A stretch of 64,000 nucleotides of DNA from Methanohalophilus euhalobius. Lineage in GTDB: Archaea; Halobacteriota; Methanosarcinia; Methanosarcinales; Methanosarcinaceae. The translations under genes were made by a program, and so were the position numbers. Location of the stretch: contig NZ_OBDR01000002.1 in assembly GCF_900215215.1 (NCBI RefSeq), positions 186,001-250,000 of the forward strand. Reading direction: 5' to 3'. Every line of letters begins with the position of its first letter. The stretch's first letter is position 1. The notes under the pieces were generated by a model that saw only the letters and a program-made list of their open reading frames with translations, had not been told where the DNA came from and searched no databases. Below, piece after piece: positions 55,104 to 60,009 of the stretch.

Positions 55104-55375
55104 ATCCACTCCCCAATAAAGTATTCTTTCCAAACAGTCAAATAAGTTATCATTGGATATTCGCAGATTAAGGTCTCAATTCTATAAAAATAATGATATT
55201 AATTTAAACCTTTATGTATATTCCATCTCAAATATAATTCTCCCATGAAATTCAGTACACAAATAAATTAGCAATTCTCAAAAATATAGATGCTTTATGA
55301 AATATTAAAATAAGACTTGTTTGCTATATAATATAAGAATTACAGATGTTTTTACAAATAAAAAGAAGTGCTTAT

Positions 55376-55915
55376 ATGGAAGACTTATTCGATGTTTAGG
55401 CAATGATTAGAAGAGAAAGGAGGCAACTCGAAGCTGATGATAATTCAGGATTAATCATTAGCTCATTGACAAAAGAACCAGTAAGATATGATTCATTTGA
55501 GGAAAGAAGTGCTTATCCTTATAATTGTGTAATAGATTTTCATTTTGTTGAGTATCAAATAAAGAATCGTTTAGTCAACAACAAATGTACCTACATAAAA
55601 AAAACACCTATAAGTAGGGAAAAAAGGTCATTCAAAAATTCAGATAGCCTAAAAAAGAAGAAGGGTTTCAGAAAAAATAATTATGTAAAGCCAACAAGCC
55701 AAAAGGACAAAATAAAAAATAATGAATTGAAATTAGATTTAGCTGATTTTATAAAATCATCCAATCATACAGCAGATAAAAATCATTTATTTTCAAGTAA
55801 TTCTGAAAATACTTCAAATACACACTGCAATATTCCAAAAAAATGTATTACCTGCAATGATAAACATAATTGCCGCCTTTTAAAGCAAGGATTTGAAGAG
55901 ATATGCAAAAGATAA
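55376..55915 (+). CDS. Unknown basic protein; in-frame TAG at codon 8
   Basis: Family not recognised. From ATG 55403 the product has 170 residues, rich in Lys, Asn and Ser, with a central low-complexity basic stretch (about 70-110) and a C-terminal C-x2-C-x5-C motif (CITCNDKHNC) plus a further Cys in EEICKR, possibly a zinc or Fe-S site. Reading back in frame there is one TAG (55397-55399) then ATG 55376 (MEDLFDV before the TAG). The TATA-like TATATAATATA (55324-55334) suits that upstream start, while ATG 55403 has no ribosome binding site. Base composition is AT-rich like the two genes that converge on it. Confidence 0.5.
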
Positions 55916-55941
55916 TTTAATTTCATTAATGAACAGCAATA

Positions 55942-56883
55942 TTATGCAAAATAATCTAATGTAACATTTTTTGATGATTTTTTATTCGAATTCAGTAACT
56001 TATTTGTGTATCCTCTAAGATCACCAGTTATTACTTCCGTATCTGGCTCTAAAATCAAACGTAGATTGCCCTGATAATGACTATCATCGGCCATATCTTC
56101 AGGAGGTTTGACAACACCCAATAAACGACCTTGTTCTTTGCAGAACTCAGCAGTTTTCATACTTCCCCCTTTACTTTTGGACTCTACAAGAACAGTTCCA
56201 AGGGATAAGCCACTTTGAATTCTATTTCTTTCAATGTATGTATACTTTTTTGCTCTTGTTCCAATAGGATATTCCGAAAGCAATATCCCACCTTTTCTGA
56301 TTATTTCTTCAGCTAATTCCTTATTGGATTTTGGACTTATTGAATCTAAACCATGAGCCAAAACAGCGGCAGTTATTCCGCCTTTTTTCAGTACACCCTT
56401 ATGCGCAGATGCATCAATTCCCAATGCAAGTCCTGATACAACATTTAGTCCTCGTTTTGCAAATTGAAATCCTAAGCATTCTGCTTTCTTTGCTCCAGAT
56501 ATAGTAGGCTTTCTTGTACCGACTATGGCGACACAATGGTCATTTAGTGCTTCAATATTACCCATAGCATGTAATAACAAAGGAGGATTTGTTATTTGTT
56601 TTAATGATTCAGGATAATTTTTGTCAAAGATCGATATAATTTGAATGCCTATTGAATTTGATTTTTCGTATATTTTGGTTGCATTATACCAAGATTTTTC
56701 AACCGTTTCAAAATCTGGAACAACAATCCGATTGTAACTTTGTTTTGCATTTTCAATTAACTGTATAATTTTATTTACATCATTTATTTTCCTTGCATCT
56801 TCTGAGGAAAGCATGGTTTGAATACTTTTATTCCCTATGCCAGAAATATTCTGCAATGTTAATATCAAGATACTAGATTTCAT
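55942..56883 (-). CDS. DprA-like (Smf/SLOG) protein
   Basis: 313 residues with a helical N-terminal region (about 1-110) and a complete DprA Rossmann-like SLOG domain: AIVGTRKPTISG (about residue 120), VVSGLALGIDASAHKG, ILLSEYPIGT, YIERNRIQSGLS, and VESKSKGGSMKTAEFCKEQG. Classic DprA loads RecA on incoming single-stranded DNA; SLOG domains also bind nucleotides in conflict systems. The start ATG overlaps the stop of the upstream gene (ATGA), so it is made together with the helicase-PRTase protein. That pairing, and an AT-rich setting away from competence genes, suggests a specialised rather than housekeeping DprA. Confidence 0.85.
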   Translation of the reverse strand: MKSSILILTLQNISGIGNKSIQTMLSSEDARKINDVNKIIQLIENAKQSYNRIVVPDFETVEKSWYNATKIYEKSNSIGIQIISIFDKNYPESLKQITNPPLLLHAMGNIEALNDHCVAIVGTRKPTISGAKKAECLGFQFAKRGLNVVSGLALGIDASAHKGVLKKGGITAAVLAHGLDSISPKSNKELAEEIIRKGGILLSEYPIGTRAKKYTYIERNRIQSGLSLGTVLVESKSKGGSMKTAEFCKEQGRLLGVVKPPEDMADDSHYQGNLRLILEPDTEVITGDLRGYTNKLLNSNKKSSKNVTLDYFA

Positions 56884-59315
56884 ATTTGATTACCAAACAT
56901 TTCATATTTTGATGTTTCACCCAATGCAAATGGGACAACAATTTTAGCTCCATTTTTATCTAAAAGTTTTCTACATATATTTAGAGAAAAGCCTTTTGTA
57001 GTGACATCATCCAACAAAAGAATCTGTTGTCCCTTGACTTTAAATCTATTGGTAATAACAAGAGAGGACATCTCTAAAGATTCTTCTTTTATTCCTCCAG
57101 CAGATTTTTTGGGAACTGTTTTTACTCTTTTTATTATATCAGTTCCATCAATTATTTGGCTTTTACATATATTACCTTTTGTATCAAAATATTCTTTATT
57201 TATTATAAATTGAGCTAGTCTACTTATACCTGTATCTGTTTCTTTTTCTTTATGAGACGGTACAATACAGAAAACAAATTTTTCAAAAACATTTAATTTA
57301 TTGATAATCAATGAATAGAAATATTTTAAAACTTCTTCCTGTGATTTGATATTAAGATTCTTGATATTTTTTAAATTTAATATACTCTTTGAAAAGCTAT
57401 CAAAATCAGGGTTGGTACCATTTCTGTAAGGTTGATAGACGCCACATACAAATATATTATGTTGTGCAACCAATAAGTTGTGTTCTTTTTTTAGAAAGAT
57501 GCTGGGCACTTCTAGTGAATACAAAGATTCTTTATGAACTTCAAAATCGGTTTTCTTATCAAAGTGATTTGCATCACTTTTTTCTAATTGCTCGATATTT
57601 TGTCCCAAATATTGACCATTAAGGACTACAAGACAATCATCGCCTTTTCCAGAATACATTTTCTCTTTAATACCGGCGTATGAAAATATATTGCTATATA
57701 ACCATCTTTTAGCAGAATATTCTTTACTATTTACAAGAGGTTGCAAGTGTTTACAATCTCCAGCCATAATATAGTGTGTCTTGTTAATTAGGCCAGATGC
57801 AAAAAGAACAGATGGTAAATTGGCCATATTTGCTTCACAGAGTATCATCACATCAAAATTATGATTAAATATCTTTGAATCTAAATAAGTATTATTAAGT
57901 GTGCAACCTATTACCGAAGCATTATTAATTATATTTTCTTCAATTCCACTAATTTTACTAGATATTGTATCAATTTGTTCTGTATATTTTAGAATTTGCG
58001 AATACGTATTCCGTTTTGCTTCTATAACAATATCAAGAGAGGGTATTTCTATATTTGGTATGTCAAATAAGTCAGCAAATTCACTTAATTCTTTTTTAAT
58101 ATTATTTTTTTTTGTAAAGTTAAAGTCTCTATTTTGTTTATATTGCTCAAGATTATCCTTATAAATATTCTTTATTTCATGCTTTCTGGATAAATTGCTA
58201 TTATCCCTGGTTATACTATCCTTTATTCTTTTAGATTTGTTTATCAAAAAAATTCTTTTAACAAAATTTTTACATTTTATTTTTTTTAAATCTTTTTCTT
58301 TTTTGAATATTGAATTAAATATTGTATTCATCTCAGAATCTAAATCTTGAATTGATTTTTCCAATTTAGAGATTTCAATTTTTGCTTGTGATTCCTTATG
58401 TTCTAGGAAATTCAATTCATCTAATTTATTAGATATTTTCTGATATTGATTTAAATCTATTTTTAGAGAATTTATTCTATTTTTAAGATATTCTATTTGA
58501 TCATGTTTTTTTTCTTTTTCTTTTTGTACAATATTTTCAAAAATAAAATCATTAATTTGTGGAATTTCTACTGGATTTCCACACTTAATTATGTTACAAT
58601 TATTATCACCATTATATTTTATATAATTATAATAATTCAGTAACATCATGTCTACTACAGAATTAGTAATAGAAACAAGTAATATTTTTTTCTTAGATTT
58701 AACTAGGTAATCAATAATTATATTTAATATTCTTGTATTATCTGTTTCTAGATGTCCACACATGAAAGTTATTTCTTTTTCAAGTGAATATGTAACTGCT
58801 TTATGTTGTGAGTGTGCAATCGATTTATCTTTATTAGTGTAGTATTTATTGTATTCATAGGGTTTATCAATTAAAGTAGAAGATGCTATATTTTCTGATT
58901 CAATTAATGAAAATAATTTCATGGAATTTTCTTCATTAAATGATAATTCTTTTAAACTTATCTGGTTAAATCTATCTAAAAGTAACTCATACAAGTTTGA
59001 TATTGAAGTTTTGATAGTAATCACTGAATCTTCAGATATCAACTTTTCTTCAAGAGAAATGTTCACTCCTTCTAAATCTGTCGATACAATTTGACCATTT
59101 AAACATCTATTGCCAACGAAAATATGAATAGGAGTGTCATCAGGCATATCAATTCTTGAATCAGTTAAAATTCTGTAAACGAAACCCTTTGAAGTTGCAG
59201 TCAGGGGATGTAACTCATGAAAGTTTAAACTGAATTCAATTTCATTATTTTTAATAGATTCAATTTCTTGGTTTAAAGCATTTTGAAAAATTAATTTAAA
59301 TTCGTTAAATTGCAT
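56880..59315 (-). CDS. Degenerate SF1 helicase fused to a phosphoribosyltransferase
   Basis: 811 residues. In order: beta-barrel-like N-terminus (about 40-100); Q-motif-like SQHKAV (169-174); a Walker A position reading GHLETDNTR (187-195) instead of GPPGTGKT; motif Ia SITNSVVD (215-222); a long coiled coil (about 262-415); Walker B position DVMILCEAN (488-496) instead of DEAS; GDCKHLQPL (519-527) where active UPF1/DNA2-like helicases have GDxxQLPP; then a ComF-like phosphoribosyltransferase (about 655-811) with an intact PRPP loop ILLLDDVTTKGFS (765-777). So the helicase core should not hydrolyse ATP, while the transferase site looks intact. Strongly AT-rich, Lys/Asn/Ile-rich. It is read together with the DprA-like gene. 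Confidence 0.75.
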   Translation of the reverse strand: MQFNEFKLIFQNALNQEIESIKNNEIEFSLNFHELHPLTATSKGFVYRILTDSRIDMPDDTPIHIFVGNRCLNGQIVSTDLEGVNISLEEKLISEDSVITIKTSISNLYELLLDRFNQISLKELSFNEENSMKLFSLIESENIASSTLIDKPYEYNKYYTNKDKSIAHSQHKAVTYSLEKEITFMCGHLETDNTRILNIIIDYLVKSKKKILLVSITNSVVDMMLLNYYNYIKYNGDNNCNIIKCGNPVEIPQINDFIFENIVQKEKEKKHDQIEYLKNRINSLKIDLNQYQKISNKLDELNFLEHKESQAKIEISKLEKSIQDLDSEMNTIFNSIFKKEKDLKKIKCKNFVKRIFLINKSKRIKDSITRDNSNLSRKHEIKNIYKDNLEQYKQNRDFNFTKKNNIKKELSEFADLFDIPNIEIPSLDIVIEAKRNTYSQILKYTEQIDTISSKISGIEENIINNASVIGCTLNNTYLDSKIFNHNFDVMILCEANMANLPSVLFASGLINKTHYIMAGDCKHLQPLVNSKEYSAKRWLYSNIFSYAGIKEKMYSGKGDDCLVVLNGQYLGQNIEQLEKSDANHFDKKTDFEVHKESLYSLEVPSIFLKKEHNLLVAQHNIFVCGVYQPYRNGTNPDFDSFSKSILNLKNIKNLNIKSQEEVLKYFYSLIINKLNVFEKFVFCIVPSHKEKETDTGISRLAQFIINKEYFDTKGNICKSQIIDGTDIIKRVKTVPKKSAGGIKEESLEMSSLVITNRFKVKGQQILLLDDVTTKGFSLNICRKLLDKNGAKIVVPFALGETSKYEMFGNQI

Positions 59316-60009
59316 TGAATCACTTTCTATTTAGATTTAGACGATTGCATGGAGTAGTGACCTACTAAAATTTTATTTTATAATTAATAACAAGCCACAA
59401 AATTGCTTTTTTGCTATAATCAGTAAATATATAATATGAAACAATCTCTAGAATAAATAAATCTTTTGTATTTTTTAGTATTGTTTGGCTATTATAATTA
59501 TATTTTTCTAATATATGCCTTATAGATATCCTCACTTTAAAATTAATTGAAACACAAATATACATGCAATACCATAAATTGATAATTTCAACTTGAATTC
59601 TTTAAGCTTATTTTTGTGAATCCTTGCCCGAAGATTCCCATATTTCCTTTACAAAACAAAAATATAATTTCACCAAATTTCTTTAATAACAGAGCTATTC
59701 ATCAAATTTACACAGCAACACTCTTTTTTGTCAAATCCTAGAAAATTACAGGGCGAATTATAATATACAGCAATTTAGTGATCATCTAAACAATACTATT
59801 TGTTCACGTTATTCCATATCAAAGACTAATTAGAATGTGTTTGTCCGACAAATAGGGTAATATCAGACAAAATAATTAGAATAGGATAATGATGAGATGA
59901 TTTGTACTCCTTGCCGGAATTGATAAGAAAAAGGATTTATATTTATACCATATCTTCCTAATTTGTCTGCCAGGATAATGCATCTCCTTATTGTTAGCAA
60001 GTGGATAAC
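59316..60009. other. AT-rich non-coding stretch between island and FAH operon
   Basis: About 690 bp. The left two thirds (59316-59820) are very AT-rich with no gene that I can support; the open frame at 59365-59565 (minus) is low complexity, though the promoter of the helicase-PRTase gene must lie here. The right end holds GACAAA/TTTGTC boxes and a TATA box that serve the next operon. Confidence 0.5.
59840..59969. promoter_or_regulatory. TTTGTC/GACAAA boxes and TATA before the FAH operon
   Basis: A 6-1-6 palindrome TTTGTC-C-GACAAA (59840-59852), CAGACAAA (59864-59871) and its reverse TTTGTCTG (59962-59969). The TATA-like TTTATATTTATA (59936-59947) lies between, so the last box sits at the probable transcript start. 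Confidence 0.45.

Follow-up and report, generated by a model that had tools for sequence, protein, structure and literature searches.

ShosTA, PsyrTA and RqlHI are reported to be toxin-antitoxin systems in which a DprA homologue acts as the antitoxin, and E. coli carrying a pair of DprA-like protein and phosphoribosyltransferase (PRTase) was protected against T7 and lambda (PMC9122126). According to a 2025 review (PMC12593503), ShosT is both a phosphoribosyltransferase and a pyrophosphatase that disturbs purine metabolism and nucleotide pools, and its antitoxin ShosA binds DNA. In RqlH, toxicity comes from the PRTase domain, which does not suffice alone: the helicase part is needed, yet Walker A and Walker B mutants are still toxic, and the DprA-like RqlI binds RqlH via the PRTase and restrains the toxin (PMC4670107). 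Here we describe a two-gene locus of the archaeon Methanohalophilus euhalobius (assembly GCF_900215215.1, contig NZ_OBDR01000002.1, positions 186,001–250,000; this whole stretch of 64,000 nucleotides is the window, in which all coordinates below are counted) that joins a degenerate superfamily 1 (SF1) helicase half to a ShosT-type PRTase and places a DprA-like gene directly behind it. The operon is probably a toxin-antitoxin system of the abortive infection type. Its kind (ShosTA) is already known, and the combination of this helicase half with the PRTase is new: we found no description in the literature of an SF1 helicase-PRTase fusion with DprA, and a 2017 survey mentions only a superfamily 2 (SF2) helicase version (PMC5512222).

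Results

The fusion protein of 811 amino acids (aa) is encoded on the minus strand (56880..59315), and the TGA stop of its open reading frame (ORF) lies over the ATG of the DprA-like gene (55942..56883, minus strand, 313 aa), so that the two share 4 nt (ATGA). This overlap, the length of the protein and the letters of its motifs had been reported in an earlier note made from the sequence alone, and all matched exactly on re-check. An assembly chimera is unlikely, since the ORF is unbroken and its composition uniform.

The C-terminal PRTase domain (aa 606–804, 56904..57500) matched the ShosT profile of PADLOC (7.3e-16) better than PsyrT (1.7e-7, a match limited to positions 473–686, the PRTase end), and the partner matched ShosA (1.5e-69) better than PsyrA (1.7e-33). 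In Pfam, the fusion matched AAA_11 (1.9e-19) and, weakly and below threshold, Pribosyltran (0.0013); DNA_processg_A (2.9e-61) was found in the DprA-like protein, which also matches the solved ShosA (PDB 9vzo). With the modelled PRTase end, Foldseek retrieved the solved ShosT (8zvd, 2.9e-4; 8zvc, 7.7e-4) and also hypoxanthine-guanine phosphoribosyltransferases. The loop that binds phosphoribosyl pyrophosphate (PRPP) reads DDVTTKG (aa 769–775, 56991..57011) and is intact, as the earlier note had it; both of its Asp residues are invariant in 11 relatives. That note's picture of a live-looking PRTase coupled to a DprA-like gene, with the flavour of a conflict system, holds up well, and the named defence system that it could not supply is ShosTA, by PADLOC and by fold, with PsyrTA/RqlHI more distant.

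Like ShosTA (PDB 8zvb, 9vzo), the locus combines a C-terminal PRTase bearing a PRPP loop with a coupled, ShosA-type neighbour, and both the best profiles and the fold point to that system. Solved ShosT has an N-terminal HAD-like domain, whereas here a dead SF1 helicase half stands in that place. A related protein from a viral contig (L140; L numbers denote loci of our comparison) has a HAD_2 domain and aligns to solved ShosT 21–431. The HAD-like domain is not universal in ShosT, since PADLOC has a shorter model for this protein that PRTase-only forms match as well. PsyrTA/RqlHI share with the locus the C-terminal PRTase and DprA-like partner, and indeed the whole arrangement, in which a helicase is fused to the PRTase and a DprA-like gene comes next, but their helicase is RecQ-type (SF2), full-length and active; no RecQ-family N-terminus is present in the 811-aa protein, whose own is AAA_11/UPF1-like, and the helicase parts are unrelated.

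The two genes lie on an insertion of about 4.75 kb (55165..59910, boundaries within about 10 bp) between two divergent genes that adjoin in five congeners, which thus carry the empty site. Identity to these congeners is 91–95% up to about 55,151–55,160 and again from 59,911, with some 22–34 bp between. The insertion has 27% GC against 43% in the rest of the window, and its flanks hold hemB, hemL, hemC, pyrD, pyrK and a gltX of archaeal type, which confirms the earlier description of an AT-rich block unlike the surrounding heme, pyrimidine and gltX genes. Neither terminal repeats nor an integrase were seen at the insertion, and no HAD gene lies within it. The two-gene unit is a recent clean insertion.

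These surroundings also bear on whether the pair could be a DNA-uptake or repair module of the ComF/DprA kind instead of a defence system. The DprA-like protein just passes the cutoff of the NCBIfam dprA model (193.1 vs 191.15), and the PRTase has a weak ComF match, with ComF also listed by Foldseek; its score, however, is far below the ComF family cutoff (27.8 bits vs 233.6), which leaves it outside that family. As the ShosT and ShosA models fit far better, and the pair sits on an accessory insertion that is absent from congeners and holds no competence genes, we regard such a module as highly improbable.

The helicase half derives from a family with Mokosh-like members. Its closest intact homologue, L028, is a protein of 1055 aa from another class of the same phylum, and the two are 27% identical over 576 aa (E 2e-52). 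Pfam finds AAA_11, AAA_12 and PLDc_2 domains in L028, a complete SF1 helicase that matches Mokosh MkoA/MkoC in PADLOC and has as neighbours a cytosine methylase and genes resembling MzaB and MzaC. Further Mokosh-like homologues came from the host's class (L067, L069) and from cyanobacterial and Bacillota plasmids (L071, L073). With MkoA/MkoC the window protein shares a homologous N-terminal domain (beta-rich, with strands in the structure model; aa 1–165, 58821..59315; common to intact helicase-PLD relatives by the L028 alignment), a coiled-coil insertion and the core of the first RecA domain. The coiled coil, an antiparallel hairpin (aa 259–416, 58068..58541) modelled as helices 259–345 and 351–416, is the long insertion seen in the earlier note; it is real, but because intact relatives carry it too, it was inherited from the helicase family.

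What sets the window protein apart from Mokosh is the loss of catalytic motifs, second RecA domain and PLD nuclease. All intact homologues that cover the region keep GPPGTGKT, DE and GDxxQ, and only in the window protein are these lost in alignment: Walker A reads GHLETDNTR (aa 187–195, 58731..58757), Walker B reads CEAN (aa 493–496, 57828..57839; DEAS or DEAG in relatives), and motif III reads GDCKHLQPL (aa 519–527, 57735..57761), with Q changed to H. A broken copy (L068) is without the GPPGTGKT stretch and keeps motifs II to IV. Homology stops at 'QY' (aa 568–569), just before motif IV 'RM'; nothing remains of motifs IV to VI, of the second RecA domain or of the PLD domain (found by Pfam in L028 and L067), and directly after 'QY' a linker modelled with low confidence (aa 570–605, 57501..57608) leads into the ShosT PRTase instead. 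PADLOC gave no Mokosh match for the window protein itself, from which both the intact SF1 motifs and the PLD nuclease of that system are absent.

Foldseek matched the N-terminal part of the model to Dna2, IGHMBP2 and Sen1 (E 9e-11 to 3e-8). Together with the motif loss and the AAA_11 match, this bears out the dead UPF1-like SF1 core proposed earlier, and the structural comparison that the earlier note had suggested supports its domain order, a helicase fold and then a PRTase fold. With the P-loop lost and the second RecA domain deleted, the N-terminus is predicted to be no longer capable of ATP hydrolysis or translocation. Homologues with intact motifs, which the note had offered as a possible objection, do exist, but they carry PLD where the window protein carries the PRTase.

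Whether this half is functional or a relic can be approached through its reading frame. The 590 codons of the helicase part contain not one stop, vs 60 and 100 in the remaining sense frames, and the three-periodic codon-position pattern of this part matches that of the PRTase and DprA parts. In neutral simulations carried to the point where Walker A kept ≤3 of 8 residues, a mean of 25 stops arose (5th percentile 11, minimum 3), compared with the 0 observed. The frame of the helicase part is held by selection. An open frame does not alone show that the helicase part is itself selected, because the downstream PRTase and dprA need the frame.

This last point underlies a simpler account, in which a decaying Mokosh-type helicase gene was accidentally fused in frame to an intact shosT, leaving a plain ShosTA with a functionless remnant whose frame is open only because the PRTase and coupled dprA must be translated. 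Such an origin would fit the degenerate motifs, the cut just before 'RM', the fusion being a singleton, and the stand-alone form, of about 190–200 aa, of most archaeal ShosT. It fits less easily with 569 homologous codons that are open and three-periodic in composition like the partner genes, with the roughly 60% of non-motif family-invariant residues still present, or with a core fold still recognisable in the model; moreover, a useless leader of 600 aa would carry a cost that an internal start could avoid. Candidate TTG/GTG starts for a stand-alone PRTase do occur at aa 570–615, with no clear ribosome-binding site. We consider a mere remnant somewhat unlikely.

In a search with the PRTase alignment, 238 genomes of the class yielded 19 with the ShosT-type domain and 393 sampled phylum-wide yielded 11, and in this whole set only the window's copy lies in an 816-codon open frame. 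Most other archaeal ShosT are stand-alone proteins of about 185–290 aa, several followed directly by DprA, and PRTase-DprA pairs without the helicase recur in archaeal relatives, members of the host's class among them, and on one Bacteroidota plasmid. No second helicase-PRTase fusion was found in the class by a helicase alignment search or two further class searches, and none was confirmed in protein scans of genome contigs and viral contigs. The viral-contig scan yielded two loci with the PRTase alignment, one with DprA adjoining, and 20 loci with DprA, near which a regular-expression screen found a PRTase only at L140/L141, where it is fused to a HAD-like domain; tblastn in plasmids and phages returned PRTase-only or helicase-only matches. 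The recurrent pairing with DprA on which the earlier note had set store thus recurs for the PRTase and, in the genomes searched, does not recur for the helicase.

Several observations concern the wider ShosT family. At three loci (L017, L018 and L056), the archaeal shosT-dprA pair has a gene for a HAD-family phosphatase behind it, and in L098/L099 a HAD domain is joined to the PRTase in one protein (HAD_2 6.6e-40 for L098). This resembles the HAD-like N-terminus of solved ShosT and suggests that some archaea carry HAD as a third component split off from the toxin. Three archaeal ShosT (L056:5542-6420, L023:5251-5991, L058:4743-5774) have short, differing N-terminal extensions that by eye look helix-turn-helix-like, Cys-rich or hydrophobic and membrane-like; Pfam finds PRTase-type domains only. 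Several other ShosT copies in the phylum (L088, L091, L096) contain stop codons, which shows that the system commonly decays. On an IMG/VR viral contig (L100), integrase-like genes adjoin a PRTase of ShosT type and a gene for a DprA-like protein, consistent with prophage carriage of the pair. Within the insertion itself, a 170-aa ORF (55403..55915, plus strand) with a Cys-rich C-terminus has no family match, and a search of 100 related genomes turned up no relative; its codon-position GC pattern differs from that of the other island genes, and it may not be a gene.

Discussion

Building on the observed homologies, domain order, motif loss, gene overlap and insertion, we favour, as moderately probable, a ShosTA-type module in which a non-motor, helicase-derived regulatory domain has been placed on a PRTase toxin. 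For toxicity, its neutralisation, the trigger and the role of the helicase module, we infer the following scheme. A ShosTA-type operon would have been acquired on a small genomic insertion; its C-terminal PRTase would be the toxin, using PRPP and disturbing purine nucleotide pools, and the translationally coupled DprA-like protein would be the antitoxin, probably a partner responsive to single-stranded DNA (ssDNA). The dead helicase half would most likely serve as a non-motor module that binds nucleic acid or a partner and holds the PRTase in position or in check, and the toxin would then be set free by intermediates of viral replication or when DprA is lost. We prefer a regulatory role without a motor because of the parallel with RqlH/RqlI and the analogy with AddB/RecC, where an inactivated SF1 helicase domain, of SF1 fold and without motor motifs, has become a scanner that recognises ssDNA sequences (PMC4824097); no homology to AddB/RecC is claimed.

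Several results weigh against this explanation. As the fusion is a singleton among the 238 class and 393 phylum genomes, no case for the importance of the helicase part can be made from conservation. Up to aa 569, family-invariant residues are kept about equally in motifs (11/21) and outside them (24/39), so that a selective loss of catalysis alone is not separable. The AlphaFold2 model has a mean local confidence (pLDDT) of 66 and a predicted template modelling score of 0.37 and rests on an alignment of 7 sequences. Pfam finds no HAD domain in the 811-aa protein, although characterised ShosT has such a domain at its N-terminus, and the island contains no other defence genes. Finally, five loci (L015, L016, L020, L021, L025) have an intact ShosT-type PRTase of about 193 aa with DprA absent or reduced to a remnant (67 aa, L015:5220-5423), which sits poorly with constitutive toxicity and, if the toxin were constitutively active, would be hard to explain.

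A more specific version, which we advance tentatively and think rather doubtful, is that a captured dead Mokosh-type helicase acts as a nucleic-acid sensor gating an archaeal ShosT PRTase, so that the logic of helicase-PRTase plus DprA, known with RecQ from PsyrTA/RqlHI, would have arisen independently a second time. The earlier note had gone further, with a dead helicase sensing nucleic acid, a PRTase making or consuming a nucleotide signal, and a DprA-like protein reading it. SLOG/DprA folds do bind nucleotides in other families, and PRTases have been proposed as signal makers in Ter-type systems (PMC7824862), but in the studied relatives the DprA-like antitoxin binds and restrains the PRTase toxin or acts via DNA (PMC4670107, PMC9122126, PMC12593503), and the literature we found on them describes no nucleotide signal. 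We therefore judge this signalling scheme improbable.

If the helicase part of the module that we favour is functional, the DprA-checked PRTase toxin would be a modular effector that has repeatedly acquired different N-termini (HAD-like, RecQ, SF1 pseudo-helicase), and a dead defence helicase would be reusable without its motor; if the sensor version is true, one defence family would have cannibalised another. The fusion is also a natural setting in which to test the RqlH result that the helicase part, and not its ATPase, is needed for the toxicity of the PRTase.

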